The notes under the pieces were generated by a model. The model worked only from the letters and a program-made list of their open reading frames with translations. It searched no databases and had not been told where the DNA came from. Positions 9,184 to 32,323 of a stretch of 64,000 nt of DNA are shown piece by piece (position 1 is the first letter of the stretch; each line of letters opens with the position of its first letter). A program made the translations under genes and the position numbers. This DNA is from Rhodoferax koreense (lineage in GTDB: Bacteria; Pseudomonadota; Gammaproteobacteria; Burkholderiales; Burkholderiaceae_C), in contig NZ_CP019236.1 in the NCBI RefSeq assembly GCF_001955695.1, forward strand, positions 4,836,001 through 4,900,000, in the 5' to 3' direction.

Positions 9184-11035
9184 GGTCGGTGTTCTGGCGC
9201 CTGTCTGAAAACTCCGGTAGCCTCGCGTCCGCAGCCTGCCGGGCATGCCGCTGGAACGGCAACTTCGGCTCACGCATGAACGTCAATACCTCTGCGGCCT
9301 CCACTGGCCTGGACAGGAAGTATCCCTGCATGGCATCGCAAGGGGTCTGCGATAGTAAATCGTAAATGCCCTTGGTTTCCACACCCTCGGCCAGCACCCG
9401 ATAACCCAAGGTGTGGCCCAACGCAATCAGCGACTGCAGCAGCGTCCAGGCCCGTGCGTCTGCGACGATCGGCTTGACCAGCGATTGGTCGATCTTGATC
9501 AGATCGACCGGCAACTTCTGAAGACAAGCCAGGTTGGAATAACCGATCCCGAAGTCGTCGAGCGAAATCTGCGCGCCCATCTCACGCAGTTCGGCCAGTG
9601 CCGCGAAACTGCGCTCTCCGGTCAAGACGGCGTTTTCGGTGCACTCGACGTGCAGGTGCCGCGGGTCGATACCATGCAACGCGCAGGCGTTGCCCACGAT
9701 CTTCACGAAATTCGGATGTTCGAGGTTGCGTGCCGAAACGTTCACCGCCATCGAGATGAACAGTCCTTGCGCTTGCCACGCGGCCGTCTGCGCCAGCGCC
9801 GCGTGCAGCACCCATTCCGTCAGCAGATGGATCGTCGACGTGTTCTCGATGGCGGGAATGAATTCGGCCGGCGACACGTCGCCCCATTTTGGATGGCGCC
9901 AGCGAACCAGCGCCTCGACCGCATTGAAGCGCCTGGACCTGAAATCGAGCTTGGGCTGGTAGACCAGGCGCAGCTCTCCGCCGTTCATAGCGATCGGCAG
10001 CGCCCGCAGCATCGCGTAGCTGCGGCGGTGAACCTCATCGAAGACCGGCTGGTGCATGAGGAACGGCAACTGCCTGCGTTCGGCCAGGTGCATGGCTGAA
10101 GTTGCCTTGCGCAACACGTCGCTGGCGTCGGCCTCGCCCGACTCGTAGGTCACCGCGCCGCATTGCACTTCGAGCTCGATGGCCAGGTCGCCAACCCGAA
10201 TCGGCCGAGCCAGCGCCATCAGGATCTGGCTGATCGCGGCCGCATGCCCGGCCGTCCCGCGCCCTCGCAGCACGAATGCGAACCGGGTGTCGCTCACGTG
10301 GTACAGGGGCGACCGGCCATCCAAAATCTCCTGCAGGCGGGCTGCGATATGCCGGAGCGCGATCTCCACCGCGGTGATACCGACCGCGAGCAGCGCGCTC
10401 TGCAACCGCGCATGGTTCATGATGTCCACCAGCACCAGCGTGTGCTGCCCGGTGTCGCCTGCCAGCGCCAATTCTTCGAGGTCGACCGCCCATTGCGCGC
10501 GGTTCGGGAGCCGAGTCACATCGTGAAGACGCCCGGCCGATTGGTAGAGGTCGATCTGTGCCATGACCAGCCTGGCCAGGTCTTCCAGTTGCCTGCACTG
10601 CGCCGGTGTGAAGCTTCGGGGCCGATAGTCGATCACGCACAGGCTGCCCAGCGCATGCCCTGCCGCCGAGACCAAGGGAGCGCCAGCGTAGAAACGAATG
10701 CCGGGGCAACCCGTGACGAAGCGATTGCGATGAAACCTGTCGTCCAGCGCCGCATCCTCCACCACCAGGACCGATGGCTCCTGCACGGTGAAGGCGCAGA
10801 AAGCCGTGTTCCAGTCGGCTTCGATGAAATCCGGGCCGACGCGCGACCTGAACCGCTGCCGGTCGGCCGTGACCAGGGAAACCAATGCCGTCGGTACATC
10901 GAAGAGCTGCTCGGCAAGCCGGGTGATGCGCTCGAAACCTTCGTTTTCGGGCGAATTCGCCAAGCGCTCGGACTGCAGGGCGAACAGCCAATCGGCCTCG
11001 CCGCGTTCGGTTTGGTCGTTCAAGATGCCCTCCAT
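9176..11035 (-). CDS. GAF / degenerate GGDEF / EAL cyclic-di-GMP phosphodiesterase
   Basis: This 619-residue protein has an N-terminal GAF sensor (about 20-170), a GGDEF-like domain (about 180-335) and an EAL domain (about 345-595). In the GGDEF-like domain the signature position reads SDTRFAF, so diguanylate cyclase activity is not expected. The EAL domain keeps its catalytic set: EALVRW, VNVSARNLE, ECTEN, DDFGIGYSN, IKIDQSLV, AEGVE and MQGYFLSRP. It should hydrolyse cyclic-di-GMP to pGpG, with GAF and the dead GGDEF as regulatory parts. It is followed by the HD-GYP gene with an 8-base overlap, so two different phosphodiesterases are produced together. A large palindrome lies upstream. Confidence 0.92.
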   Translation of the reverse strand: MEGILNDQTERGEADWLFALQSERLANSPENEGFERITRLAEQLFDVPTALVSLVTADRQRFRSRVGPDFIEADWNTAFCAFTVQEPSVLVVEDAALDDRFHRNRFVTGCPGIRFYAGAPLVSAAGHALGSLCVIDYRPRSFTPAQCRQLEDLARLVMAQIDLYQSAGRLHDVTRLPNRAQWAVDLEELALAGDTGQHTLVLVDIMNHARLQSALLAVGITAVEIALRHIAARLQEILDGRSPLYHVSDTRFAFVLRGRGTAGHAAAISQILMALARPIRVGDLAIELEVQCGAVTYESGEADASDVLRKATSAMHLAERRQLPFLMHQPVFDEVHRRSYAMLRALPIAMNGGELRLVYQPKLDFRSRRFNAVEALVRWRHPKWGDVSPAEFIPAIENTSTIHLLTEWVLHAALAQTAAWQAQGLFISMAVNVSARNLEHPNFVKIVGNACALHGIDPRHLHVECTENAVLTGERSFAALAELREMGAQISLDDFGIGYSNLACLQKLPVDLIKIDQSLVKPIVADARAWTLLQSLIALGHTLGYRVLAEGVETKGIYDLLSQTPCDAMQGYFLSRPVEAAEVLTFMREPKLPFQRHARQAADARLPEFSDRRQNTDHA

Positions 11036-18684: not shown

Positions 18685-18880
18685 GCGATTGCCTATCCCT
18701 GTGCGCCTGGCAACCCTCGTCCAAGATGGGCCATTGTAGGTGAGTGCCGCCCCAACAGCCTGTGGCCCACATCGTTCGAATCCTTGCGATTTCGCAAGTG
18801 CCGTATCTCCGACGTGGTTGCTAATTCAGTCGGTCCTGCGCCACGCAGCTTCCAAGCCCACATCTACCAGGAGAAAAGAA

Positions 18881-19570
18881 ATGATGACCAGATTTGCGCA
18901 ACTGCTGTTCGCGCTCCTTTTGACGTCGAGCCATTTAGCCCATGCGTCTTGGACGAGCTTTTCGCTCGATCAGATCGACGCGCCGCTCAGCGCCCCACGC
19001 CACATCGACATCGCCACTCTCGATCCCTTCGCCTTGGGAACGACGATCGAACTCGGTGTGCCATCGGTGTCGCCAGGAACTCCGCTCTTCAGTTTCAGGA
19101 ACGCCACCGGCTTCACGCTGGACGACTTCCATGTGACCATCACCTGCGTACAGACCGATCTCAACGCATGCAACGGTGGGCAGGTATTCGGCCCCTCCCA
19201 GCCATCGAGCGACATCTTCAGTCAAGTCTCCGACAACGTGGTCCCCTCGCAGAATGCCGGGATCTACACATGGAATTTCGACTTTTCCGGCGGGGATATC
19301 CTGCCGGGCGAACTCTTCGCCATCGTTGACAAGGGCAACGCTCTCGGACTTCCGCCCGCCGTGCTCGGCATCACCGCACGCGCTTCAGTCCCTGAGCCAA
19401 GCAGCGCCTTGTTGACCCTCTCGGCGTTGGCCTTCGTCGGCCTGATCAGCCGGCGTCGGCGCGTCGTCAAGTGCCCCATCCCCCCCCGCAGGTCGGTGGT
19501 GCATGTTCTCCAACTCAGGAATCCGCAGCACCGCGCGAGCCCATTCACAAGGCATACATCGATGGGCTGA
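18881..19570 (+). CDS. PEP-CTERM sorting-domain surface protein with atypical C-terminal extension
   Basis: This 229-residue exported protein has a signal peptide (MMTRFAQLLFALLLTSSHLAHA) and a beta-rich middle with no named domain. A PEP-CTERM sorting signal runs VPEPSSALLTLSALAFVGLI followed by SRRRR, near residues 170-195. Such proteins are cut by an exosortase and linked to extracellular polysaccharide in biofilm formers. The start is set by AGGAG eight bases before the ATG. The odd point is that about 35 residues follow the arginine cluster, where this class normally ends. The extension overlaps the acyltransferase gene by 100 bases and crosses a run of eight cytosines at 19480-19487. 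No exosortase gene is in the window. Confidence 0.82.
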   Translation: MMTRFAQLLFALLLTSSHLAHASWTSFSLDQIDAPLSAPRHIDIATLDPFALGTTIELGVPSVSPGTPLFSFRNATGFTLDDFHVTITCVQTDLNACNGGQVFGPSQPSSDIFSQVSDNVVPSQNAGIYTWNFDFSGGDILPGELFAIVDKGNALGLPPAVLGITARASVPEPSSALLTLSALAFVGLISRRRRVVKCPIPPRRSVVHVLQLRNPQHRASPFTRHTSMG

Positions 19571-21521: not shown

Positions 21522-21535
21522 TTGCGCCATCTCAA
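21522..21535 (+). promoter_or_regulatory. FNR-type site upstream of phosphoribosyltransferase
   Basis: TTGCG-CCAT-CTCAA matches the FNR/ANR consensus TTGAT-N4-ATCAA in its core TTG-N8-CAA. Its centre is 21528.5. A -10-like AACAAT lies at 21558-21563, which puts the site about 41 bases before a start near 21570, the class II activator position. The gene start is at 21628. Confidence 0.55.
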
Positions 21536-21627
21536 TCCAGGCACACGCCGTGCGACGAACAATGGAAGGCCAGTTTTCGCAGCATCGCCTGCCCGCACCC
21601 AGGACTCACTCGGAAGGACCCCATGCC

Positions 21628-22290
21628 ATGTTTGCCGACCGACTTGACGCCGCCGAGCGCTTGGCCGAGGCGCTTCAACACTACGGAGATCGACAACCTT
21701 TGATCCTCGCCATTCCCCGGGGAGCGGTGTTCATGGGCGCGGTGCTGGCGCGCCGCCTGCACGGCGAACTGGACGTCATCATGGTTCGCAAGCTTCGAGC
21801 GCCAGATGCACCCGAATTCGCCGTGGGCGCGGTCGATGAGGCCGGTTGGACGTACATTGCGCCGCATGCGCAAGCCGCTGGCGCCCAGCCTGGCTACCTC
21901 GAGGCAGAGACGCGGGGGCAGTTGCGCGAAATACGCCGTCGCCGCGCGCTTTACACGCCGGGGCGCCCGCCCGTGGAAGCCACCGGCCGAACCGTGATCG
22001 TGGTGGACGACGGCCTGGCCACGGGCGCCACGATGATCGCGGCCCTGCATACCGTGCGAGAACGCAAGCCCGCCCGGCTGGTATGCGCGGTCCCCGTGGT
22101 CTCCCCACACGCTCTTGCGCAGGTTCGGGTCCTCGCGGACGAAACGGTCTGCCTCCAGGCGTCGGCTAATCTCCGTGCTGTGGGTCAGTTCTACCGCGCA
22201 TTCCCGCAGGTGGAAGATGCCCAGGTGGCGGCTTTGCTCAACGCGAGGAATACGGCCGCTGCCGCGCGCAAGGATGCGCGTGGCGCCTGA
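21628..22290 (+). CDS. Phosphoribosyltransferase-domain protein
   Basis: This 220-residue type I phosphoribosyltransferase fold has the PRPP-binding signature VIVVDDGLATGATM near residue 125, the early loop AIPRGAVFMGAVLARRL near 25 and the flexible-hood region VRKLRAPDAPEFAVGAV near 50. Proteins of this group, unlike purine salvage enzymes, are often found among stress and dormancy genes and their substrate is unknown. The start at 21628 is preceded by GGAAGGA; an earlier frame opening at 21550 would overlap the proposed promoter. Transcription probably begins near 21570 under the FNR-type site. The next gene is convergent, 59 bases away. Confidence 0.85.
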   Translation: MFADRLDAAERLAEALQHYGDRQPLILAIPRGAVFMGAVLARRLHGELDVIMVRKLRAPDAPEFAVGAVDEAGWTYIAPHAQAAGAQPGYLEAETRGQLREIRRRRALYTPGRPPVEATGRTVIVVDDGLATGATMIAALHTVRERKPARLVCAVPVVSPHALAQVRVLADETVCLQASANLRAVGQFYRAFPQVEDAQVAALLNARNTAAAARKDARGA

Positions 22291-22349
22291 TGGACGATTT
22301 TCGCGCCGACCGATCGGCAACCGCAGCGACGGCCGCACCTTCCCGTGGC

Positions 22350-22718
22350 CTAGGTCGGCGATGCCTCCTGAAGCCGCGCTTCCTCGTGCTTGCGCCAAAG
22401 CGCATAGAAGCGACGGAATTCATCGTCTCGGCGTCCTCGCAGGCCCGTGTCGTGCCAGCCTGCCAGGAATTCGGACTCCTCGACGGTCAACCCTCGCAAA
22501 ACCTCCTGGTCGGCGGCATTGCGCGACAGGGCACCGACTCGGATGAGGCGTGCACGCACCTGAGGCGGGAAAGCCAGGAAATCAGACGTGCCGGAAGTTT
22601 GCGCAGCATCCATGCAACAACACCGCGATGTTTCAGCATCCCGGGCGCTTCGCCTCATGCGGCCAGCCCACCGCTGGAACATGGCCACTGAATCCTCGTC
22701 GAATGCCATGGCTGCCAT
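22350..22718 (-). CDS. Hypothetical protein, 122 residues, in stress cluster
   Basis: I do not recognise a domain. The protein is soluble and mostly helical, with a CCC triplet near residue 33 and a charged C-terminal half (LTVEESEFLAGWHDTGLRGRRDDEFRRFYALWRKHEE). It starts three bases after the stop of the ribosome-hibernation-like gene, so the two are surely cotranscribed. Codon use has a GC-rich third position like its neighbours. A 133-codon ORF on the opposite strand (22290-22691) shares the TGATG junction with the phosphoribosyltransferase but has a low-complexity composition; the minus-strand frame is preferred. Its role may be tied to translation arrest or stress survival by context only. 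Confidence 0.6.
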   Translation of the reverse strand: MAAMAFDEDSVAMFQRWAGRMRRSARDAETSRCCCMDAAQTSGTSDFLAFPPQVRARLIRVGALSRNAADQEVLRGLTVEESEFLAGWHDTGLRGRRDDEFRRFYALWRKHEEARLQEASPT

Positions 22719-22721
22719 CTC

Positions 22722-23150
22722 TCAAACGTTGTTTTCATGGATTGGCACAACAGCCGAACGCAGGGCGGCTCGGGCCGGCGCCTGGCCCGGCCAGGACATC
22801 GGATGTTCGCGCACGCCCGCGTCTGGGCCTTCGTTCAGGCTCCGCACGGGCCGCATGCTGTCTTCCAGTTGCCGCCGGGCCCGGCTGAAGACCTGCCGCA
22901 CCGAGGTGCGTGCATCGGGTGACTCGGCGGCGCGCACCTGCAGTTCACGACCAGGCAGCCGCACGACCAGACGAACCTGCCGGTCGTGCTGCGGCGTGGA
23001 GGGTTGTCCTTTCTCCGGCCCGATGAAAACCCGGCAGGTCATGGCGCACCGGACCGCACTCAGCAGCTTGGCCGCCTCTTCCCTTGCCACCGTTTCGATG
23101 CCAACCGGTGCTCGCGTACTCGACATGTGGATCTGGATGCTGTCTTCCAT
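22722..23150 (-). CDS. HPF/RaiA-like (ribosome hibernation / sigma-54 modulation) family protein, divergent
   Basis: This 142-residue protein resembles the hibernation-promoting factor fold in its first 100 residues. It opens with a strand (SIQIHMSST), has a helix ending in LLSAVRCAMTCRVFIGPEKG, then strands VRLVVRLPGRELQVRAAE and a final helix DARTSVRQVFSRARRQLED. Such proteins bind 30S subunits and stall ribosomes in starving or hypoxic cells. Similarity is judged by pattern, not alignment, and the C-terminal 40 residues have no counterpart in short HPF. It is followed at three bases by the 122-residue hypothetical gene and preceded by the phasin-like gene, probably one transcript. Confidence 0.6.
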   Translation of the reverse strand: MEDSIQIHMSSTRAPVGIETVAREEAAKLLSAVRCAMTCRVFIGPEKGQPSTPQHDRQVRLVVRLPGRELQVRAAESPDARTSVRQVFSRARRQLEDSMRPVRSLNEGPDAGVREHPMSWPGQAPARAALRSAVVPIHENNV

Positions 23151-23251
23151 TCGAACTCACCTGTTCTTTCTTTTGTTCCGTCATTCGCGCCGCCGCAGGA
23201 TCGGCCCATCGCATCCATCGAAGCAACAAGCCAGTGACGTGCAGCCCCTCC

Positions 23252-23785
23252 CTACTTGCGCCCGCGAGGCTCCGTTGCCGGCATGACCGCGGCCACCCAG
23301 GCCTTGGCCACCGCCTGCCACGTGGTCAGCGAGCGGTCCAGCCAGGGGGCCATGGCAGGCGTGGTAACGCGCCTGGCACCGCCGTCGAAAAAGGGCATCG
23401 CACACAATTTCGACGCACTTTTGCCGTTCGCACGAATGGCCTTCGCAATGGCGGACTGCATTTCCGCCCAGGCATTCGCCATCTCTGCCTGCCCACTCAA
23501 GGTCTGCACGATGCCCTTCGTCACCAGCTCGCGCTGGATGTCCAGCCAATCCTTCGGATGGCGGCTGAGGACCAGCCCGCGTTCCGCCTCGGCCACCTCC
23601 TCAACCCATTGCCGGCAGAGGTCGGACTGCACGCGCCGCATCTGCTCCAGGAAGTAAAGCATCAGGTGATGCGTCTGGAGATCCGCGGATTCGGCGGCCG
23701 TCACATCCTCGACGTCCTCGATCTCGGCCTCGTCGGATCGCGCCATTCGCCGTGCGGTTCGCTGAGCATGTGCGTTGTTTTCCAT
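23252..23785 (-). CDS. Phasin-like helical protein
   Basis: This 177-residue helical protein looks like a member of the broad phasin group that coats polyhydroxyalkanoate granules. Supporting features are the long amphipathic helices (LEQMRRVQSDLCRQWVEEVAEAERG, VQTLSGQAEMANAWAEMQSAIAKAI) and the late FFDGGARRVTTPAMAPWLDRSLTTWQAVAKAW. The match is by pattern and is not certain. The start is set by GGAGTTCCC directly before the ATG. An FNR-type site and a good -10 sit upstream, giving a leader of about 70 bases. It is probably the first gene of a transcript running through the HPF-like and 122-residue genes. Confidence 0.6.
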   Translation of the reverse strand: MENNAHAQRTARRMARSDEAEIEDVEDVTAAESADLQTHHLMLYFLEQMRRVQSDLCRQWVEEVAEAERGLVLSRHPKDWLDIQRELVTKGIVQTLSGQAEMANAWAEMQSAIAKAIRANGKSASKLCAMPFFDGGARRVTTPAMAPWLDRSLTTWQAVAKAWVAAVMPATEPRGRK

Positions 23786-23890
23786 GGGAACTCCTTGGGT
23801 TCTGGTGGCAGCGGTCGTGCGTCACGCTTCACTGGATCGCTCGTGTCGGGTCAGCCTTCACAAAGTCTAGGCAGTGAACCGGCGACTGCG

Positions 23891-23904
23891 TTGCGCTAAG
23901 TCAA
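23891..23904 (-). promoter_or_regulatory. FNR-type site upstream of phasin-like operon
   Basis: The plus strand reads TTGCG-CTAA-GTCAA, core TTG-N8-CAA; on the gene strand this is TTGAC-N4-CGCAA. A -10-like TAGACT (four of six to TATAAT) lies at 23864-23869 on the minus strand, giving a predicted start near 23857. The site centre is then at about -41, the class II position. The site overlaps the last codons of the FAD-patatin gene. Confidence 0.6.
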
Positions 23905-26229
23905 GCCCGGCCTCCAGGAAAGTGGCGATGCCAAATTCCTGGCCAGGTCGGCACGTTGCAGGGCGAGCAGCCCGGCCCGGTAGCCCTCCAATCGGTGCAG
24001 GCGCAACGTCGTGCTCGAAAAATCGAAATCACGCGATGCCGTCTCGTCGGGCGATGCCTCGCGCACGATGCGGGTGATGTCCACATGCGGGTCGTCACCC
24101 ATCAAGTCGACGTACCGCGGCCGCTGGCGCAATTGATCGGCGGCCATCGGCTCCATCTGCGACAGGCACTCCTCTACCAGCTTGCGGAATTCACCGAGCA
24201 CGGCATCCTCGGAACCAGTGCGGCGGATACGCTCCGCATAGATGATTTCGTCGCGCCGGCTCCACACGTCGGCCATCGTCTTGGGCAGCTCGCGCTGACT
24301 GCTGAAGAGATCGACCACCACCACCCGCTTGCCGGCCACGCCACAGCGCTCGACAACCTGTTCCAGCGGCGAGTTGCTGACGATGCCGCCGTCCCAGTAG
24401 TGGCGCTCGCCGATGCGGGTCCAGGGCAGGCCCGGCGGCAGGCTGCCGCTGGCGAGGATGTGGTCCACGCCGATATCGTCCACATAGCTGTCGAACAGCC
24501 GCAGCTCGGCCGTTTCGACCTCGACCGCGTTCACCAGCAGCCGCACCGGACTGGTACGCAGACCCCCGAAGTCCACGTATTTCTCGAGCAGGCTGCGTGC
24601 GGGCGAGAAGTCATAGAACGACGTCCACGCCATGGCCGGCTGCCCGTCCCATGCCGCCGACAGCCAACGCGGCCGGAACAGCGCGGGAACACCCCACCAC
24701 ATGGCCTGCAGGCTGGCCAGCCAACGGCGCATCGGCTCGTGGGAAACGCTCGGGGTGCTCATCGCCACCTCCGACCAGAAGGCCTCCAGCGCACGGGCCG
24801 CACCCTTCGGGTGGGAAGCCATGATGGCGCCGTTGAAGGCACCGATGGAGACCCCGGCCACGACGTTGGCCCGTAGCTGCGCTTCCTCCAGCGCCTTCAC
24901 GACACCGCATTCGAAGGCCCCCAGCGCGCCGCCACCCTGCAGGATCAGCACCGTCTGGCTGGGCACACGCAGCAATGAGAACGACCCCGAATGCGCACCT
25001 TCACGGGACCGGCCGATGTGCGTCCGATAGCGGATCAGCCCGCGTGCGGCACGGGTCTCGGCCGCAGGCCGGCCAGTAGTGACCAGCGCCCGCGGAATAT
25101 GGTCCCGCAGGAACAGCGTGGCCCATGCGCCACTGTCCAGTGCGCCCATCTCGATGCGTTCGGTCGCGCCTTCGGCCGCGCCCAGGAACTGAAATCCACG
25201 GTCGAAGACTTCACAATAGAAGGTGGAGACCTCGTCATAGGGCAGGTTGCGGCCCAGCATGTTCTTGGCGGCCAGCCGGCCCTGCCTGACGGCGTTGTCC
25301 CAATGCTCGATGCGGCGCCGCTTTTGGAACACCGGGTCGAAGAAGTTGGCCACGTCGCCCGCGGCGAAGACGCCCTGCGTCCCGCTTTGCAGGCGATCGT
25401 CCACCAGCACGCCATCCTCGCAGGGAATGCCGCTGCCCGCCAGGAAAGCGACATCGGGCCGCACGCCGATGCCGACGATCACGAGGTCGCAGCCCAGCAC
25501 CCGTCCGTCACCCAGCACCACCCCTTCCACGCGCGTGCGCCCGCTCAGGGCGGTGGCCTCGCCGATCGCCAGCCGCACGCCGTGCCGCTCATAGAGCGAT
25601 GCAAAGTAACGCACTAGTCCCGGCGCCCGCAGAACATCGAAGCGGCCTCGTCGCGGCGCCAGCATGGTCACGTCCAGCCCCTTCTGGCACAGCGTCGCGG
25701 ACACCTCCATGCCGATGAAGCTGGCGCCGATGACGACCACGCGCCGCGCTCGCGCGGCCGCGGCGTGGATGGCGGCGGCATCTCCGGCATGACGCAGGCA
25801 ATACACGCCTGGCAGGTCCGCGCCCGGCACCGCCAGCCGCACGGCATGAGCGCCCGTGGCCACGAGCAAACGACCGTAACGCAGCGGCGGCCCCCGGTCG
25901 AGCCGAACCTGCCTGGCCGCAGCATCGACATGGACCGCGCGCGTGCCGAGCAGCAACTCGACCTCGAGCCGCTCGTAGACCTCCGGACGCAGCACCGGCT
26001 GCGGTGGCCTCGCCTCGGCCGACAGCAGCAACCGCTTCGACAGCGCGGGGCGGTGGTAGGGCGCGATCGGCTCGGCGCACACCATGGCGATGGTGCCCGT
26101 GGCACCTTCGGCCCGCAGCGTTTCCGCCGCCGTGGCGCTGGCCAGTCCGCCGCCGATCAGGACGAAGTCGCAGTCTCGGGCCTCGATGGCGGTTGAGCCT
26201 TCTTCCGGATGCAAGCCTGCGTGGTCCAT
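23896..26229 (-). CDS. Fusion of FAD/NAD reductase (ferredoxin-reductase type) and patatin-like phospholipase
   Basis: This 777-residue protein joins two enzymes in one frame. Residues about 20-405 are a two-dinucleotide-fold flavoprotein of the rubredoxin/ferredoxin reductase group: FVLIGGGLASATAAETLR for FAD, YHRPALSK, VVVIGASFIGMEVSATL for NAD(P)H and GVFAAGDVANFF. After a short linker, residues about 428-640 are a patatin domain with GGGALGAF (oxyanion), GVSIG (nucleophile Ser461) and DGG (Asp613). The tail HVDITRIVREASPDETASRDFDFS resembles the C-terminal segment of DUF3734 patatins. The ATG at 26229 was chosen; the frame opens earlier only with a TTG. An FNR-type site lies 35-48 bases upstream. 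The link between reductase and lipase activity is unknown. Confidence 0.9.
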   Translation of the reverse strand: MDHAGLHPEEGSTAIEARDCDFVLIGGGLASATAAETLRAEGATGTIAMVCAEPIAPYHRPALSKRLLLSAEARPPQPVLRPEVYERLEVELLLGTRAVHVDAAARQVRLDRGPPLRYGRLLVATGAHAVRLAVPGADLPGVYCLRHAGDAAAIHAAAARARRVVVIGASFIGMEVSATLCQKGLDVTMLAPRRGRFDVLRAPGLVRYFASLYERHGVRLAIGEATALSGRTRVEGVVLGDGRVLGCDLVIVGIGVRPDVAFLAGSGIPCEDGVLVDDRLQSGTQGVFAAGDVANFFDPVFQKRRRIEHWDNAVRQGRLAAKNMLGRNLPYDEVSTFYCEVFDRGFQFLGAAEGATERIEMGALDSGAWATLFLRDHIPRALVTTGRPAAETRAARGLIRYRTHIGRSREGAHSGSFSLLRVPSQTVLILQGGGALGAFECGVVKALEEAQLRANVVAGVSIGAFNGAIMASHPKGAARALEAFWSEVAMSTPSVSHEPMRRWLASLQAMWWGVPALFRPRWLSAAWDGQPAMAWTSFYDFSPARSLLEKYVDFGGLRTSPVRLLVNAVEVETAELRLFDSYVDDIGVDHILASGSLPPGLPWTRIGERHYWDGGIVSNSPLEQVVERCGVAGKRVVVVDLFSSQRELPKTMADVWSRRDEIIYAERIRRTGSEDAVLGEFRKLVEECLSQMEPMAADQLRQRPRYVDLMGDDPHVDITRIVREASPDETASRDFDFSSTTLRLHRLEGYRAGLLALQRADLARNLASPLSWRPGLT

Positions 26230-26263
26230 GCAGGCATCTTGTCGACCGCGGCGCGCGAAAGCT

Positions 26264-26277
26264 TTGAGCCACCTCAA
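26264..26277 (-). promoter_or_regulatory. FNR-type site in spacer between FAD-patatin gene and response regulator
   Basis: TTGAG-CCAC-CTCAA is a perfect five-base inverted repeat and matches TTGAT-N4-ATCAA at eight of ten positions. Its centre (26270.5) is 41.5 bases from the FAD-patatin ATG at 26229. If it acts as a class II site the transcript would start at or near the ATG (leaderless), with CAAGAT at 26236-26241 as a weak -10. It might instead serve the divergent response-regulator gene 130 bases away. Confidence 0.5.
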
Positions 26278-26399
26278 ACTCGGCCGAGCCCCGATGATTC
26301 GATCTGTTACAGACTGTCCAGCATACGCAGTGAAAAGCCCGCGCAATAATTGAAACAAGGTTTTCGCTACCTCACAACTGGCCCACCCGCCCGACGCCC

Positions 26400-27134
26400 G
26401 TGAAACAATCCATCCACCTCGCCATCCTGGACGATGAACTCGACATCCGGATGCTGGTTTCGAACTATCTCAGCGGGCACGGGTACCGTGTGAGTTGCCT
26501 GAAGAATGGCGCCGAAATGTACGCCCTCATGTCCCGCGATCCGGCCGCCCTGGTCCTGCTCGATCTGGGGTTGCCGGGTGAGGACGGCCTATCCATCGCC
26601 AGGCAATTGCGCCAGCAATGGCGCTGCGGGCTGGTGATCGTCACCGGCCGGGGCGAAGCCGTGGACCGCGTGGTCGGGCTGGAGCTTGGCGCGGACGACT
26701 ACATCACCAAGCCGTTCGATCTTCGCGAGATGGCCGCCCGGATCAAAGCCGTGCTGCGTCGGCTCCATCCGGCCGATTTCGACGGCGCGAGCGGCCCGGC
26801 TCCGCTGTCCGAACCATCCCTGTGCTTCGATGGCTGGCGGCTCGACCCGGGCGCGCGCAGGCTGATCGACGAGGCCGGCGGCGAAGTGCCTCTGACTTCT
26901 GGCGAATTCGACCTGCTGCAGGTCTTCGCGCGCCACGCCGGCCGTGTACTGAGCCGCGACTTCCTGCTAGACCATACCCGCGGCCGCGATGGCGGGCCGT
27001 TCGACCGCACGATCGACGTACAGGTCAGCCGGTTGCGCAGGAAGATCGAGGAGGACCCGGATCACCCGCGACGCATCAAATCGGTCCGGGGCGCGGGCTA
27101 CCTGTTCGTGCCGCCCGTCACGCGCGAGGGATGA
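26400..27134 (+). CDS. OmpR/PhoB-family response regulator
   Basis: This 244-residue regulator has a receiver domain (about 5-118; acidic pocket LDDELD, phosphoacceptor aspartate in LLDLGLPG, switch T in VIVTGRG and lysine in YITKPFDLRE) and a C-terminal winged-helix domain (about 145-240; LTSGEFDLLQVFARHAGRVLSRDFLLD and TIDVQVSRLRRKIE, GAGYLF). The start is GTG. The stop overlaps the kinase start as ATGA, so this and the next gene are a coupled two-component system. Targets are not visible; the stress cluster around it and the FAD-patatin promoter next door are candidates. Confidence 0.93.
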   Translation: MKQSIHLAILDDELDIRMLVSNYLSGHGYRVSCLKNGAEMYALMSRDPAALVLLDLGLPGEDGLSIARQLRQQWRCGLVIVTGRGEAVDRVVGLELGADDYITKPFDLREMAARIKAVLRRLHPADFDGASGPAPLSEPSLCFDGWRLDPGARRLIDEAGGEVPLTSGEFDLLQVFARHAGRVLSRDFLLDHTRGRDGGPFDRTIDVQVSRLRRKIEEDPDHPRRIKSVRGAGYLFVPPVTREG

Positions 27135-29227
27135 GCATGGCCCGGCATCAGTCGCATCCATGGGTGGCCGGCACGGGCGGCGACATGCAGGCCGACAGCG
27201 CCATGCTGGCTGCCATCTTCCTGGCCAATCCGGATGCCCTGCTCGCCGTGGACGGCGACGGCGCCATCGTGCTGGCCAACCACGCCGCCACCAATCTCCT
27301 CGGCTACTCCGAACAGGAGCTTCGGCAGATGAACGTGGACATGCTGGTGCCCGCCAATGCGCGCGCTGCGCATGCCACGCACCGCCAGGACTACGCGCGC
27401 GCGCCACAGGCACGACCCATGGGGGAGCGCAGCGAACTCTGCGTGCGATGCAAAGATGGCCAGGAGGTGATGGTGGAGATCGCACTCAGCCCCATGGCGC
27501 GGTCCGGTCGCCCCATGGTGCTGGCATCGATCCGTTCGATCGGCGCGTACCCACGCGTACGTCAGGCCTTGCGCCGGGCACGGTACAGCGAAAGCCTGGC
27601 GCGACTCGGGCATGTGGTGGTCAACGCGCGGGACCCACAGACGGTGCTCGACCTGTTGCCCGGTGTCGCTGCCGAGGCACTGGAAGTCGAAAACGTCGCC
27701 GTCTTCCTGCTGGAGGACGACCACCAGCACCTGCGCGTGGCCAGTTCGGTCGGCGACATCCAGGGCCAGCAGACCGGCATGCGCATTCCCTATGAGAAAA
27801 AGAGTTCGCTAGGCCTGGTTCTGGCGGGTGGCCACAACCTGATCGTCGAGGACTACTGCCGCGAAACCCGTTTTGACGTGCCCGAGGCCTACCTCCGGGC
27901 GGGACTGGCCAGCGCAGGAGTCACGCCAGTGCACGATCATGGCCGGATGATCGGCGCGCTGGCGGCGCGTTCCCGCACGCCGTCGCGTTTCGGCAGCGAG
28001 GAGATGCACTACCTCGAATCCCTGGCGAGCCTGCTCGGCACCTACCTGCAACGCGTTCGGGCGGACGCCGCCCTGCGCCATGCCCAGACCCTGGAGAGCG
28101 TTGGCCAGTTGTCCGGCGGCATCGCCCATGACTTCAATAACCTCCTGACCGTGATCCAGGGCAATCTGGAAGTGCTCGGAGAACGCCCCCCTTCCTCGAT
28201 CGACGACGAAGCCAGGGAACTGGTGGGCACGGCAGCCCGTGCCGCGCGGCGAGCCGCCGAGCTCACCGCCAAGCTGCTGGCGTTCTCGCGGCGCCAGGTG
28301 TTGCAGCCTACGGCAGTGAACGTGGCGGCTCTCATCTCGTCGCTGGCCGACATGCTGCGCCGTACGCTGGACCGGCGCATCGAAATCTCCGTGCGGGTCG
28401 ACCCCCAATGCCCGGCGATCCAGGTGGACGAAGTCGAGCTCGAAGCTGCGTTGCTGAACATCGCCGTGAATGCGCGCGACGCGATGCCCGAAGGCGGCAG
28501 GCTGCGCTTCGAGGCAACGCGCAGCCAGGCCCTGCCAGACGACGTGCGCACGGAGTTGACGGAAGACGCCGCAAGAGGGACCGAAGGTTTCGTGACCATC
28601 GCCGTTACGGACGACGGCTGCGGCATGCCGCCCCAGGTGAAGGAACGCGCTTTCGAGCCGTTCTTCACCACCAAACCGCAGGGCCGTGGCACCGGCCTGG
28701 GCCTGAGCACGGTGTTCGGCTTCGTCAAGCAGTCCCACGGCACGGTACGCATCGACAGCGAATCCGGGCGGGGCACCACGGTCCGGCTGTACATGCCTTG
28801 CGCCGCGGCACGGCAGGCCTGCGCGGAACCTGCACCGCCATCCGAGGCATTGCCCGTCGGCTTGCACGTCCTGCTGGTGGAGGACGATCACGACGTGCAG
28901 GCCACGACGGTCCGCCTCCTTCATGACATCGGCTGCAAAGTGCATGCTTTCAATAGCGGCGAGGCCGCACTCGATGCCCTGCCCCGCCTGGGTACCGTCG
29001 ACCTGCTGCTGACCGACGTGGCATTGGGCAGGGGCATGCGCGGCACCGCGCTGGCGGCCAAGGCGCAAGGCTTGCGCCCCTCCATGGCAGTGGTGCTGAT
29101 GTCGGCCTTTTCCACCGATTTGCTACAGGTGAACCAGGAAGCGCCGCCGGACTGGGAACTGCTGGCCAAGCCCTTCTCGCGCGAGGAGTTGTCAGGCGCG
29201 CTGGCACTGGCCCTGCACCAGCGCTGA
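27131..29227 (+). CDS. Soluble hybrid sensor histidine kinase (PAS-GAF-HisKA-HATPase-REC)
   Basis: This 698-residue protein has no membrane helix. In order: a PAS domain (about 20-130; LANPDALLAVDGDGAIVLANHAATNLLGYSE), a GAF domain (about 150-295), a dimerisation/phosphoacceptor domain with [11 protein letters not shown] (His333), an ATPase domain (about 440-555; NAVNARDAMP-like N box, DDGCGMPP, FFTTKPQGRGTGLGLS) and a C-terminal receiver (about 575-695; LLVEDDHDV, LLTDVALG, LAKPFS). The PAS domain shows no obvious heme or flavin ligand motif, so the signal is unknown; cytosolic PAS plus GAF sensors often read redox state or gases. It is translated by overlap with the response regulator. Confidence 0.92.
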   Translation: MSMARHQSHPWVAGTGGDMQADSAMLAAIFLANPDALLAVDGDGAIVLANHAATNLLGYSEQELRQMNVDMLVPANARAAHATHRQDYARAPQARPMGERSELCVRCKDGQEVMVEIALSPMARSGRPMVLASIRSIGAYPRVRQALRRARYSESLARLGHVVVNARDPQTVLDLLPGVAAEALEVENVAVFLLEDDHQHLRVASSVGDIQGQQTGMRIPYEKKSSLGLVLAGGHNLIVEDYCRETRFDVPEAYLRAGLASAGVTPVHDHGRMIGALAARSRTPSRFGSEEMHYLESLASLLGTYLQRVRADAALRHAQTLESVGQLSGGIAHDFNNLLTVIQGNLEVLGERPPSSIDDEARELVGTAARAARRAAELTAKLLAFSRRQVLQPTAVNVAALISSLADMLRRTLDRRIEISVRVDPQCPAIQVDEVELEAALLNIAVNARDAMPEGGRLRFEATRSQALPDDVRTELTEDAARGTEGFVTIAVTDDGCGMPPQVKERAFEPFFTTKPQGRGTGLGLSTVFGFVKQSHGTVRIDSESGRGTTVRLYMPCAAARQACAEPAPPSEALPVGLHVLLVEDDHDVQATTVRLLHDIGCKVHAFNSGEAALDALPRLGTVDLLLTDVALGRGMRGTALAAKAQGLRPSMAVVLMSAFSTDLLQVNQEAPPDWELLAKPFSREELSGALALALHQR

Positions 29228-29322
29228 ACATCCCCCCAGGCGCCCTCGGGGCTGCAGGTTCGATCGGATGCGCAAATGCCGCGTCAGGTCGGCCAGTTGC
29301 CTGCCCGCGTGGCGCAGCACGC

Positions 29323-30126
29323 TCAGTGCAGCACCGGACCCAGCCCGGCCAGGCTGTCCTGCACGAAGTCGTCCAGGCCATCGATGTCCGGAATGGCAAT
29401 GTCGCGCCGGCCCTTCACCGGAAACGCGATCAATTGCATCCTCGACAGCAGCGTCAGTGCGCGGCTCACGGTCTCCAGCGTCATGCCCAGGTGGTTGCCG
29501 ATCTCGGCGCGCGTGAGTCGCAATGCGATCTGGTCGGTCCGCAGGCCCCGCGCCTGCAGCGCCAACGCCCACTCGTGCAGAAAATTGGCGACGCGCGCGT
29601 CGGCCGGCAGCGTGCACACCGACATCAGGGAGTTGCGGCTCTGGGCCATCTGCAGTCCCATCGCCTGGTGCAAGGCGGTGAGCAGGGCCGGTTGCTGCGC
29701 GCAGGCGGCCAGCAGCGCATCGTAGCGGAACGACCAGAGCTCCCCGGTGTCCATCGCCACCGCATCACAGGCGTAGACGCCGTTGGCAATGCCGTCCAGG
29801 CCCAGCCAATCGCCGCGGAACTTCAGCCCGACGATCTGCTCCCGGCCATCCTGGGCCAGATTGACCACCTTGAAGGCGCCCGAGTGGGCGAAATGCAGGT
29901 GCGTGAAGCCGATCCCCGCCTGGTAGACGGCCTCGCCCGCATGCACGATGCGTCGGCTCGGTGCCAAGGCCGAATTCAGCAGCGCGGCCGTATCCGCGAT
30001 GTGCGCCTGCTCGACCAGCCCTCGACGGCGCACGGGCCGCTCGACCCGGGTCGACGGGTCGCCGCGCAGCGGCTGGACCTGGAAGTTCTGGACTGTGGCG
30101 GGGTGCAGTTGGGTTTGGATGAACAT
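29323..30126 (-). CDS. Crp/Fnr-family regulator with FNR-type recognition helix but no Fe-S cysteines
   Basis: This 267-residue protein has a cyclic-nucleotide-binding-like sensor domain (about 45-165; HAGEAVYQAGIGFTHLHFAHSGAFKV, GREQIVGLKFRGDWLGLDGIA) and a C-terminal winged helix (about 190-255). The recognition helix LTRAEIGNHLGMTLETVSRAL has the E-x2-S-R of FNR, which reads TTGAT half sites. FNR holds its iron-sulfur cluster with cysteines near its N-terminus; here no cysteine occurs before about residue 115, so oxygen sensing by that cluster is not expected. It may respond to NO, heme or redox state like DNR-type proteins, or simply to its own level. A perfect FNR box lies 150 bases upstream. 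Confidence 0.9.
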   Translation of the reverse strand: MFIQTQLHPATVQNFQVQPLRGDPSTRVERPVRRRGLVEQAHIADTAALLNSALAPSRRIVHAGEAVYQAGIGFTHLHFAHSGAFKVVNLAQDGREQIVGLKFRGDWLGLDGIANGVYACDAVAMDTGELWSFRYDALLAACAQQPALLTALHQAMGLQMAQSRNSLMSVCTLPADARVANFLHEWALALQARGLRTDQIALRLTRAEIGNHLGMTLETVSRALTLLSRMQLIAFPVKGRRDIAIPDIDGLDDFVQDSLAGLGPVLH

Positions 30127-30275
30127 GGAAGGCTCCGAAGTGAATGGTGATGGTTTGGATTGAGGTTAGGGTCAGCCTGCGGCATGCATGAAAACCGTCT
30201 GAAACGCCGCGTGCCGTTGTGTGAACCGTCGGTAACAGCACACCACGGCAGCCGTCAGCCACAGTTGACCGGCGC

Positions 30276-30289
30276 TTGATGCACATCAA
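30276..30289. promoter_or_regulatory. Perfect FNR box
   Basis: TTGAT-GCAC-ATCAA matches the FNR/ANR/DNR consensus at all ten specified positions. It lies in the 229-base divergent spacer between the Crp/Fnr gene (start 30126) and the carbamoyltransferase-like gene (start 30356). For the latter, a weak -10 (AAGATT, 30312-30317) gives a start near 30324 with the site centred at about -41. Autoregulation of the Crp/Fnr gene is also possible. Confidence 0.8.
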
Positions 30290-30355
30290 ACCTCAGCCCG
30301 CAGCCGCTTCCAAGATTCGAACCGAACGCTGCATGCCCACCGACACCTCCGCTTC

Positions 30356-30844
30356 ATGATGTGTGCCCGTCCCCATATCGATCTCCATGGCCTGCCCAGC
30401 CTCTCGAGGCTGCTGGCCAGCGCGCGTGGTCTGCGCAATGCACCGGCTCGCTCGGTGCGCAGGCTCGCGCTGCGCGGGAGCCACCTGGGCTTGCTGACCC
30501 GGGAAGTCGACAAGGCCAGCGCCGAGCGGTTCTGCCGCGCTGCAGAAGCCCTCGGCGCCCATGTGTCGCAGGTCACCCCGGCGCTCACAGACAGCAGCCT
30601 TCCGGCCGACATCGACCGGCTCGCCGGGGTCTTGGCTCGCCTCTATAGCGGAATCGAGTGCCAGGGCATCGCGCCGTCGCTTGTCGGCCGCATCGCGGCG
30701 AAGTCGGGTGTGCCGGTGTTCGCGGGCCTGGCCACGCCAGCGCACCCGCTGGCGGAGGCCGTCACAGCCATGGGTGGCGAAGGCAGCGACGAGGAGAAAT
30801 GGATCTGGCTGATCCAGGCGGTGCTGCTCGAACGGATCGGATGA
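30356..30844 (+). CDS. Truncated, motif-less ornithine carbamoyltransferase-like domain protein
   Basis: This 162-residue protein resembles only the N-terminal (carbamoyl-phosphate-binding) half of ornithine carbamoyltransferase. The family track is clear in FCRAAEALGAHVSQVTPALTDSSLPADIDRLAGVLARLYSGIECQG followed by VPVFAGLATPAHPLAEAV. However, the S-T-R-T-R carbamoyl-phosphate motif, expected where DKASAERF stands, is missing, and so is the whole ornithine domain. It is unlikely to be a working transcarbamylase; binding or regulation of the catabolic pathway is a guess. ArcB-type enzymes of the arginine deiminase pathway are classically under ANR control, and this gene has a perfect FNR box upstream. 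Confidence 0.6.
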   Translation: MMCARPHIDLHGLPSLSRLLASARGLRNAPARSVRRLALRGSHLGLLTREVDKASAERFCRAAEALGAHVSQVTPALTDSSLPADIDRLAGVLARLYSGIECQGIAPSLVGRIAAKSGVPVFAGLATPAHPLAEAVTAMGGEGSDEEKWIWLIQAVLLERIG

Positions 30845-30906
30845 GCGCTCCCAAGCCAGGCGGTACCTGGCGCAAGACGCCCAGGGCAGGCGGCCCGACC
30901 ACACGC

Positions 30907-31725
30907 TCAGTGCGCCATCAGCACCGGCAGGGTCATGCGTTCCAGCAGCGTGCGGGTGGATCCACCGAGCAGCAGTTCACGCAACCGGCTGTGGTGGTAG
31001 CAACCCATGACGAGAAGCTGGCCGTTCAGGTCGGCGGCACGCGACAGCAGGCGTTCACCGACATCGCCGGTGTCCCGGTCGGCATGCAGGACCGGGTCGA
31101 TGCCATGATGCTTCAGGTAGCCCGCGAGCCGGACGAGCGCGAATTCCGCATCGTCGCCGTAGGCCAGCGCATGCACCCGCTTCGCCCGCATGAGCCAGGG
31201 CAGCGCCGCGCTGACAGCGCGGGCCGCCTCGCGGTTTTCCTTCCACGCGATCAGCACCGTACCACCGACCTCGGTGGCCGGGCCGGCGTGGGGCACGAGC
31301 AGCGTCGGCTTGCCGGTGGCCGCCATGACGTCCGGCACGAAGTCGGTGGGCACGTCTTCGCCTTGCGTGTCGTCCGGATCCCGCTGCCCCAGCACAAGCA
31401 AGTCCGCGTAGAACGCCCGCTGCATGAAACCATCCGGCGCCGAAGGCAGCTGCTCGCCCCAGCTCAGCCGTGGCGCACCGGCGGCATGTGCCTCGAAGAT
31501 GCGGTGGGCCTTGGCGCGACGCGCGCGGTCGAGCTCCTCCATGATCGGCACGGCCTGTCCTCCGCCCCGAAGCGAAGCAGCGTATTGCTGCAGAGCCGAA
31601 ACCACCGCGTATTGCACGGTGGTTTCGGCATCGAAGGCATCGGCCAATTGGCGCGCGACCTGCATCCGCTTGGCGGCGTGCGAGGACGAGTCCAGGTGAA
31701 CAAGGATCGAGGCAAGGGTTTTCAT
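30907..31725 (-). CDS. Universal stress protein, tandem UspA domains
   Basis: This 272-residue protein consists of two UspA-like domains. The first (about 1-140; MKTLASILVHLDSSSHAAKRM) lacks a full ATP motif. The second (about 150-272; TVLIAWKENREAARAVSAALPWL, ending LLVMGCYHHSRLRELLLGGSTRTLLERMTLPVLM) keeps the G-x2-G-like and G-S-T elements of ATP-binding Usp proteins. The ATG at 31725 has a near-ideal GGAGG seven bases upstream and was chosen over the earlier in-frame start at 31830. Usp genes are frequent members of hypoxia regulons, and an FNR-type site lies 61 bases upstream. The gene converges on the carbamoyltransferase-like gene with a 62-base spacer. Confidence 0.9.
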   Translation of the reverse strand: MKTLASILVHLDSSSHAAKRMQVARQLADAFDAETTVQYAVVSALQQYAASLRGGGQAVPIMEELDRARRAKAHRIFEAHAAGAPRLSWGEQLPSAPDGFMQRAFYADLLVLGQRDPDDTQGEDVPTDFVPDVMAATGKPTLLVPHAGPATEVGGTVLIAWKENREAARAVSAALPWLMRAKRVHALAYGDDAEFALVRLAGYLKHHGIDPVLHADRDTGDVGERLLSRAADLNGQLLVMGCYHHSRLRELLLGGSTRTLLERMTLPVLMAH

Positions 31726-31786
31726 GGGAACCTCCGATGGATGGCGGACGCGGGACACCAAGTTAGCCGACGGCCCTGCGCACGGC

Positions 31787-31800
31787 TTGCGCCACGTCAA
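31787..31800 (-). promoter_or_regulatory. FNR-type site upstream of universal stress protein gene
   Basis: The plus strand reads TTGCG-CCAC-GTCAA (gene strand TTGAC-N4-CGCAA), with the same half sites as the phasin-like operon site at 23891. A weak -10, TAACTT at 31760-31765 on the minus strand, puts its centre at about -41 and leaves a leader of about 28 bases before the ATG at 31725. Confidence 0.55.
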
Positions 31801-31848
31801 TGAGCGAAGGCCTCGTGCAGCAATCGGCACGACCGATCAGGAAGCGGG

Positions 31849-31862
31849 TTGATCCAGGACAA
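31849..31862 (+). promoter_or_regulatory. Half-degenerate FNR-type site upstream of small secreted protein gene
   Basis: TTGAT-CCAG-GACAA has one perfect half site and the CAA of the other. A -10-like TAGAGT (four of six) lies at 31884-31889, so transcription would start near 31896 with the site centred at about -41 and a 17-base leader carrying AAGGAG. Confidence 0.5.
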
Positions 31863-31912
31863 GGCGGCTTGCGCCGTGGCGCCTAGAGTGGGCTTGTTCG
31901 AAGGAGATGGCC

Positions 31913-32323
31913 ATGAAGACCTGTTCACGCGCCGCAGCGACGGCGGCCTTGTGTGTTGCGTTCTGTATCGCGCCGCCACTTGCGGCGCACGCGGGCCAGG
32001 CGGTCCCGTTCCAGAACGGTGGCATCGGCGACGAGAGCCGGCAGGAAATGGCCGCGGCGCGCCACCAGTATCGGCTGCGCATGAGCTTCGCAGAGACGCG
32101 CAGCGGTGCCTACATCACGGGTGTGAGCGTCGTCATCGAGCGCGGACAGAACGGCGGCCAGCTACGTTTCGAGGACTGCGGCCCGCTCTTCTATGTGGCC
32201 ATGGAGCCTGGCGTGTACCACGTCACCGCGACCTACGGTGGGCTGAGCCAAAGCCGCGTGGTGGACGTCCGACACGGCGCCCGCGAACTCGTCCTGTACT
32301 GGCCCGCCGCGTCTGAAAGTTGA
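31913..32323 (+). CDS. Small secreted protein with carboxypeptidase-regulatory-like beta sandwich
   Basis: This 136-residue protein has a signal peptide (MKTCSRAAATAALCVAFCIAPPLAAHA) and a mature part of about 110 residues. The latter looks like a small beta sandwich of the carboxypeptidase regulatory type (SGAYITGVSVVIER, YVAMEPGVYHVTATYGGLSQSRVVDVR). The function is unknown; a periplasmic or cell-surface location is expected. Of two nearby ATGs, that at 31913 is preferred because AAGGAG lies six bases before it, whereas it abuts the one at 31907. The gene diverges from the universal stress protein and precedes a small membrane protein gene by 28 bases. Confidence 0.72.
   Translation: MKTCSRAAATAALCVAFCIAPPLAAHAGQAVPFQNGGIGDESRQEMAAARHQYRLRMSFAETRSGAYITGVSVVIERGQNGGQLRFEDCGPLFYVAMEPGVYHVTATYGGLSQSRVVDVRHGARELVLYWPAASES

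Follow-up and report, generated by a model that had tools for sequence, protein, structure and literature searches.

Six TTG-N8-CAA sites of the FNR/FixK type lie in a 10-kb stretch of the Rhodoferax koreense genome (positions 21522 to 31862 of the window, the 64,000 nucleotides of contig NZ_CP019236.1 that were analysed), around genes for a hybrid histidine kinase, an OmpR-type response regulator and a Crp/Fnr protein. We consider it probable that the stretch is an FNR/FixK-box satellite around an hFixL-FxkR-FixK-like kinase relay, which feeds an activator without iron-sulfur (Fe-S) ligands. In the circuit that we propose, a satellite of the genome's FNR/FixK-box regulon would be built around this regulatory core. 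The PAS-GAF hybrid kinase would pass a phosphoryl group to the response regulator, the response regulator would contact a K-box-like repeat in the crp/fnr promoter, and the Fe-S-less FNR-type activator would act at class II TTG-N8-CAA promoters of OTC-like, universal stress protein (Usp), phasin/HPF and other stress genes. Low oxygen would presumably be the signal, and the boxes may be shared with two four-cysteine FNR proteins encoded elsewhere in the genome. The sites, with their spacing and conservation, the absence of Fe-S ligands, and the repeat upstream of the regulator gene, which co-occurs with the response regulator, can all be read in the sequence. The initial annotation, which assigned the whole set to the Crp/Fnr protein encoded within it, missed that this regulator has no Fe-S ligands and that its promoter carries a K-box-like repeat. 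The regulatory core and the boxes are as follows.

26400..27134, plus strand: OmpR-type response regulator, candidate FxkR-like, with a Trans_reg_C output domain
27164..29227, plus strand: hybrid histidine kinase, candidate hFixL-like, PAS-GAF-HisKA-HATPase-REC
29323..30126, minus strand: Crp/Fnr protein of 267 aa, with an FNR-type helix and without N-terminal Fe-S cysteines
30211..30237, minus strand: K-box-like direct repeat TGTTACCGACGGTTCACACAACGGCAC in the crp/fnr promoter; -10-like TAACCT of the regulator at 30163-30168
21522..21535, plus strand: FNR/FixK-type box TTGCGCCATCTCAA; -10-like AACAAT at 21558-21563; precedes the phosphoribosyltransferase gene 21628-22290
23891..23904, minus strand: box TTGACTTAGCGCAA (minus-strand letters); -10-like TAGACT at 23864-23869; precedes the phasin-like, HPF-like and 22350 genes and overlaps the FAD-patatin gene stop
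26264..26277, minus strand: box between the FAD-patatin and response-regulator genes; -10-like CAAGAT at 26236-26241, minus strand
30276..30289, plus strand: perfect FNR box TTGATGCACATCAA; -10-like AAGATT at 30312-30317, facing the OTC-like gene
31787..31800, minus strand: box; -10-like TAACTT at 31760-31765, facing the Usp gene
31849..31862, plus strand: box TTGATCCAGGACAA; -10-like TAGAGT at 31884-31889, facing the small-protein gene at 31907

All six 14-mers were found where the initial annotation had placed them, and the site at 30276 is, as it had said, a perfect FNR box (TTGAT-N4-ATCAA), the only one in the stretch and one of 8 in the 5.9-Mb genome. By gene calls, five of the six are intergenic, and the one at 23891 reaches into the FAD-patatin stop codon. 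Within the 10,341 bp of the stretch, six TTG-N8-CAA sites stand against 1.3 expected at the genome rate (Poisson probability about 0.002, for a stretch picked post hoc) and one occurrence of the reversed pattern. The bare motif is common, with 749 occurrences in the genome, and statistics on the window are therefore weak: the window holds 13 against a shuffle mean of 10.0, at least 13 were reached in 19 of 100 shuffles, and the genome total is below the 909 of the reversed pattern. Bare-motif counting, in the window or the genome, was thus set aside as uninformative.

Comparison with related genomes strongly suggests that TTG-N8-CAA sites mark a real regulon that is rich around the local regulator, and that the sites are functional. 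We sampled 200 genomes of the window's family, its own included (G-numbers denote sampled genomes, with G000 the window's own, and L-numbers fetched loci). Orthologues of the crp gene, scoring above 178 bits with the next match at 139, were found in 41 of these, and none in two sampled genomes of the same genus; a search of named genomes for the regulator returned two Variovorax loci only, from metagenome-assembled genomes. Twenty orthologous loci, each comprising the 20-kb surroundings of crp, were taken from the best-scoring orthologues with contig room, and their genes were called with our own dicodon caller. The start codons of four window genes and the crp coordinates were set by hand, the latter being estimates in two loci. 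Random control stretches (20 of 20 kb) came from the window's genome, and controls inside the orthologous loci were the reversed pattern and other spacers.

In the intergenic DNA of the 20 loci, TTG-N8-CAA was the top of 64x17 palindromic dyads (58 occurrences against 6.3 expected, z 20.6), the second-ranked dyad, TGA-N6-TCA, being part of the same motif. It was not among the 12 top dyads listed for the random stretches. By direct count the loci hold 56 intergenic sites, where the reversed pattern gives 3 and six alternative spacers give 2-7; with the crp promoter excluded, 38 remained against 2 reversed. The random stretches held 20 intergenic sites against 6 reversed, and part of the enrichment is therefore genome-wide. 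The 77 genes behind boxes in the orthologous loci include 17 of Crp families, 14 OTCace_N, 7 Usp, 6 OmpR-type response regulators, 2 HemN and 1 COX1. For 75 control genes from the same loci, the 25 Pfam families listed include 9 response regulators and 6 kinases, and Crp, OTCace_N and Usp do not appear among them (77 genes were drawn; the L102 Crp gene at 9733-10455 and its divergent gene at 8770-9594, both of the orthologous core, were left out). The kinase and response regulator lie inside the 20 kb in 16 of the 20 loci, and 17 have an OTC-like gene, in most cases next to the regulator and facing away from it.

Promoter geometry points in the same direction, and the six sites resemble genuine activating sites of the FNR/FixK kind known from oxygen responses. 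Matches to TATAAT were scored at the box centre +28.5/+29.5, class II spacing placing the centre near -41.5. The four of six matches that had been reported for 21522, 23891 and 31849 were recovered at this offset, as were the weaker fits at 30276 (plus strand) and 31787 (minus strand), with three of six each; the site at 26264 has three on the minus strand and two on the plus strand. Since only 1 of 114 site-directions at random own-genome sites reaches four matches and 19 reach three, the three 4/6 hexamers are notable and the 3/6 ones weak. TANNNT starts at +28.5/+29.5 in 20 of its 27 occurrences (55 offsets, 91 site-directions with a downstream gene); as controls, it was found in none of 20 intergenic site-directions without a gene and 8 times in 55 coding ones, 2 of these at +28.5/+29.5. 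Where a start follows 30-125 bp downstream, 41 of 60 site-directions have at least three TATAAT matches at the class II offset, compared with 8 of 50 other directions and 19 of the 114 random ones. A class II promoter at 26264 would begin transcription at or beside the FAD-patatin start codon. Among 45 orthologous box promoters with a -10 (loci L083-L102), 11 have their ATG 38-47 bp from the box centre (L095:346 and L097:15526, for example), and the predicted transcript would therefore be leaderless or nearly so.

The OTC-like gene and crp diverge from a shared intergenic region, in which the -10 points to the OTC-like gene (many orthologues have the TAG-N-CT type) and the crp start is mostly 130-170 bp from the box. 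The centre of the perfect box in the window is 156.5 bp from the regulator start, with three of six matches toward the OTC-like gene and none toward crp at the right offset. A box lies within 400 bp of crp in 16 of the 20 loci. We judged autoregulation of crp by the perfect box unlikely as its main control, because the -10 faces the OTC-like gene and not crp. Outside the stretch, a possible seventh site, TTGCGATTTCGCAA, occurs in intergenic DNA at 18784-18797 with a 4/6 hexamer at +29.5, facing a plus-strand gene (18881-19570) whose product has a C-terminus that looks PEP-CTERM-like.

The E-x2-S-R helix that had been noted is present in the product of 29323..30126 as T-L-E-T-V-S-R. The protein has no N-terminal cysteine cluster, and a C-x2-C-x4-7-C N-terminus occurs in 0 of 46 members of the regulator group. 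When aligned with a solved FNR, the local regulator has Trp at the position of the fourth FNR cysteine, which we take to be number 122, a cluster ligand. With the cluster ligands absent, identity of the local protein as an Fe-S FNR was rejected: it resembles Fe-S FNR/ANR proteins in its recognition helix and box, but lacks their Fe-S ligands. In a tree of regulators, the betaproteobacterial proteins form one clade (100/100), and the test of their relation to the rhizobial activators and to FNR gave p-AU 0.453.

The repeat in the regulator promoter was found by aligning 32 distinct crp upstream regions, and its fullest form is GTTTAC-N5-GTTTAC-N5-GTTAC. A matrix was seeded by consensus from the same 32 promoters, with only the window left out, for its own score; fixed background frequencies were used for named and alphaproteobacterial loci and for 14 further crp homologues. 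The window's repeat scores 27.1; no other match in the window exceeds 7.9, and none in 400 kb of the same genome exceeds 11.5. Each of the 20 orthologous loci, whose promoters also trained the matrix, has one copy scoring at least 25, upstream of crp. Eight weaker matches score 9-13.9: five are this repeat read with a shift, a sixth also falls in the crp promoter, and the remaining two lie in other places. Variovorax paradoxus VAI-C, which is outside the matrix, has a repeat scoring 29.2 between crp and an OTC-like gene, in surroundings with the kinase, the response regulator, Usp, BON, phosphoketolase and PhbB. The distance between the -10 and the centre of the two proximal half sites is 49-51 in 21 of the 32 promoters and 60-61 in 5, the other 6 having no TANNNT; this centre would therefore lie at about -62 if the hexamer is assumed to begin at -12. 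The simple two-half-site pattern of the window occurs twice in the genome against four times for its reversed control, and thus the pattern alone is not selective.

Across genomes, the occurrence of the repeat appears largely to follow that of the neighbouring two-component pair, the OmpR-type response regulator and the PAS hybrid kinase. Response-regulator orthologues of at least 290 bits (next match 257) occur in 33 of the 200 genomes, all within the 41 that have crp orthologues. Among the 14 further crp homologues, the repeat (21.6-30.9) is present in six of seven copies from genomes with the response regulator, and it is absent (-2.4 to -11.5) in all six genomes with neither response regulator nor kinase. 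G173, which has both repeat and response regulator, groups in the regulator tree with the repeat-less G131 and G050, so descent alone does not explain the distribution. We hypothesize that the K-box-like repeat is probably a target of the adjacent response regulator.

This arrangement resembles the hFixL-FxkR-FixK(f) relay of Rhizobiaceae. The FxkR-bound K-box, GTTACA-N4-GTTACA with half sites 10 apart, is located at -62 of fixK9a and fixK9b in R. leguminosarum 3841 (PMC7888657). The likeness covers a hybrid PAS kinase with a receiver domain, a response regulator of OmpR and not FixJ type, a K-box-like direct repeat at about -62 whose half sites are spaced by 10 bp, and an Fe-S-less FNR-type activator with anaerobox-type targets. 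On plasmid pRlvB of R. leguminosarum UPM791, a like triad, to which the record gives generic names, is surrounded by genes for Usp, BON, Hsp20 and acetate kinase. The window differs in being betaproteobacterial, in the GAF domain and the other PAS of its kinase, in having stress genes as targets, and in its half-site letters and extra upstream half site; the likeness that we propose is one of function, and does not extend to orthology of the response regulator and activator. The FixLJ-FixK system, known from alphaproteobacteria and also from B. dolosa (PMC6127331), shares the order sensor kinase, response regulator, FNR-type activator, but the window's response regulator has an OmpR-type (Trans_reg_C) output domain and not that of FixJ. 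The kinase PAS matches the haem PAS domains of DosP and FixL, and the proximal-His position is kept in 23 of 23 kinases (20 beta- and 3 alphaproteobacterial). The output domain of FixJ is of a type different from that of OmpR.

Several observations weigh against this interpretation. The response-regulator tree keeps the betaproteobacterial clade (100/98) apart from the three rhizobial proteins, with OmpR-family paralogues between them (split 96/91). A joint clade was not rejected (p-AU 0.226); our claim is therefore that the circuit works like the rhizobial relay, not that its every part, such as the response regulator with FxkR, is orthologous. The database names of the rhizobial triads are generic, and we assigned the triads to hFixL-FxkR-FixK by gene order, with a K-box in two of three: in S. 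meliloti and R. leguminosarum the exact GTTAC-N5-GTTAC separates the genes for response regulator and activator, in Agrobacterium it does not, and the full betaproteobacterial matrix found no match at the three alphaproteobacterial promoters. The betaproteobacterial half sites GTTCAC, GTTTAC and GTTAC are similar but not identical to GTTACA, and the third half site of the window is degenerate. A second crp copy, G143:C1, lacks the repeat in a genome that has the response regulator. Conversely, G101 (part of the matrix set) and G118 (among the 14 further homologues) have the repeat with the response regulator undetected, in fragmented assemblies with the kinase beside crp, and repeat-less crp homologues are also more diverged. 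The FixL Arg is not kept, Met standing in 18 of 20 betaproteobacterial kinases and Ser in the window's. In a haem PAS we take the proximal His and this Arg to have the roles they have in FixL. With the Arg replaced, we rejected an established haem PAS as an overclaim, and haem binding by the kinase PAS therefore stays a candidate. Finally, 4 of the 20 loci lack a box in the 400 bp nearest crp. The target genes themselves are not conserved: tblastn found no FAD-patatin, phasin-like or HPF-like homologue in any of the 20 loci, with a Usp match in three and a phosphoribosyltransferase match in one.

The remaining genes of the stretch are as follows.

21628..22290, plus strand: phosphoribosyltransferase-domain protein (Pfam Pribosyltran)
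22350..23785, minus strand: probable operon of phasin-like 23252-23785, S30AE/HPF-like 22722-23150 and unknown 22350-22718
23896..26229, minus strand: FAD oxidoreductase-patatin fusion (Pyr_redox_2 + Patatin)
30356..30844, plus strand: OTC-like protein, a stand-alone carbamoyl-phosphate-binding domain, encoded divergently beside the regulator
30907..31725, minus strand: universal stress protein (Usp)
31907..32323, plus strand: small protein with a signal-like N-terminus by inspection, without NCBIfam hit

The labels given to these genes earlier mostly hold by Pfam (Pribosyltran, Pyr_redox_2 with Patatin, Usp), but S30AE falls below its cutoff and the OTC-like protein has no Pfam hit, its label depending on sub-cutoff OTC models and on relatives that match OTCace_N. 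The Phasin_2 match of the phasin-like protein sits exactly at the Pfam cutoff.

The alternative that survives best, although we think it unlikely, is that the boxes are real but read by two four-Cys FNR proteins, with the local Fe-S-less protein minor or differently triggered. Read from their sequences, two such proteins with the same E-x2-S-R helix are encoded at C1:1808434 and C1:1877591. Between their genes lie an island at C1:1842-1852 kb (L171), denser in boxes than the window's stretch, with 12 TTG-N8-CAA in 10 kb and 1 reversed, among genes for four Usp, BON, Hsp20 and Phasin_2, and, 11 kb beyond it, a COX1 (ccoN-like) gene with a perfect box. Published work gives this alternative some precedent: two FNRs co-activate Usp genes in H. 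seropedicae (PMC5934665), and B. cenocepacia has several FNRs of undefined function and an FNR-box-like motif on induced genes (PMC4505428). On the other side are the strong box enrichment around local-regulator orthologues, a comparison made in the 20 local-regulator loci only, and the FAD-patatin homologues. These are patchy: nine of the other 199 genomes sampled have one at 720 bits or more, G095 being the single one of the nine with a crp orthologue, and none of the nine has an FNR-type box in the 260 bp upstream (a count that leaves out one bare TTG-N8-CAA 29.5 bases inside an estimated start). One of the four-Cys FNR genes (L173:3961-4749) has boxes before it (L173:3895) and directly after it (L173:4750), suggesting autoregulation. 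As a further observation on the assembly, the 23.9-kb contig C2 may repeat parts of C1:713000-731000, with paired HTH_Crp hits of equal score.

The nearest described stress locus, from the consulted text, is the low-oxygen-activated lxa locus of B. cenocepacia, which has an FNR-box-like motif and the Crp-family gene BCAM0287 inside, with BCAM0049 and BCAM1483 elsewhere (PMC4505428, PMC4981469). Both are stress clusters with Usp, an FNR-box-like motif, a local Crp-family gene, two-component genes and two further FNRs elsewhere. Gene content differs, the window's stretch having one Usp only, and the 1.84-Mb island with its four Usp genes fits the lxa locus better. Multiple Burkholderia FNRs are described as keeping their cysteines (PMC4505428), whereas the local protein has none of them.

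If the regulon were purely local, with these genes and no others under the encoded Crp/Fnr protein, as the initial annotation had proposed, a regulator inside the cluster and boxes before most transcription units would be accounted for. Of that proposal, the FNR-type class II sites stand, through ortholog conservation and -10 spacing, but exclusive local control is improbable: similar genes have denser boxes at 1.84 Mb, two four-Cys FNRs share the helix, and the perfect box offers no class II -10 to the regulator, whose promoter carries a separate repeat and -10. The set probably belongs to an FNR-box regulon that spans the genome, because the genome encodes both four-Cys FNRs with the same helix and, between them, the box-rich island and the boxed COX1 gene. 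That the cluster is mere noise of a frequent six-base pattern would suit the window and genome counts, but the dyad enrichment, conservation around orthologues and class II spacing make chance very unlikely.

We return to the kinase-fed activator. On balance, we lean towards an hFixL-FxkR-FixK-like oxygen cascade with a K-box-like repeat that is spread through the window's family, given the response regulator in 33 of the 200 genomes, all with the regulator gene, and named relatives that are Burkholderiales. The origin of hFixL-FxkR-FixKf has been placed in the Rhizobiaceae ancestor, and the word Betaproteobacteria does not occur in the text of that paper (PMC4999443); the cascade would then either not be of Rhizobiaceae-only origin or have arisen twice with nearly the same DNA code. 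A literature search, which was not exhaustive, found no betaproteobacterial hFixL-FxkR-FixK-like circuit, and we propose here such a variant of a known relay type. If this is correct, the rhizobial oxygen relay would extend to free-living Burkholderiales, where it would be tied to stress-survival genes. It would also offer an answer to why one bacterium has several FNR-like proteins, with some sensing oxygen by Fe-S clusters and the local one being fed by a kinase, and the promoter repeat would serve as a ready marker for finding the circuit.

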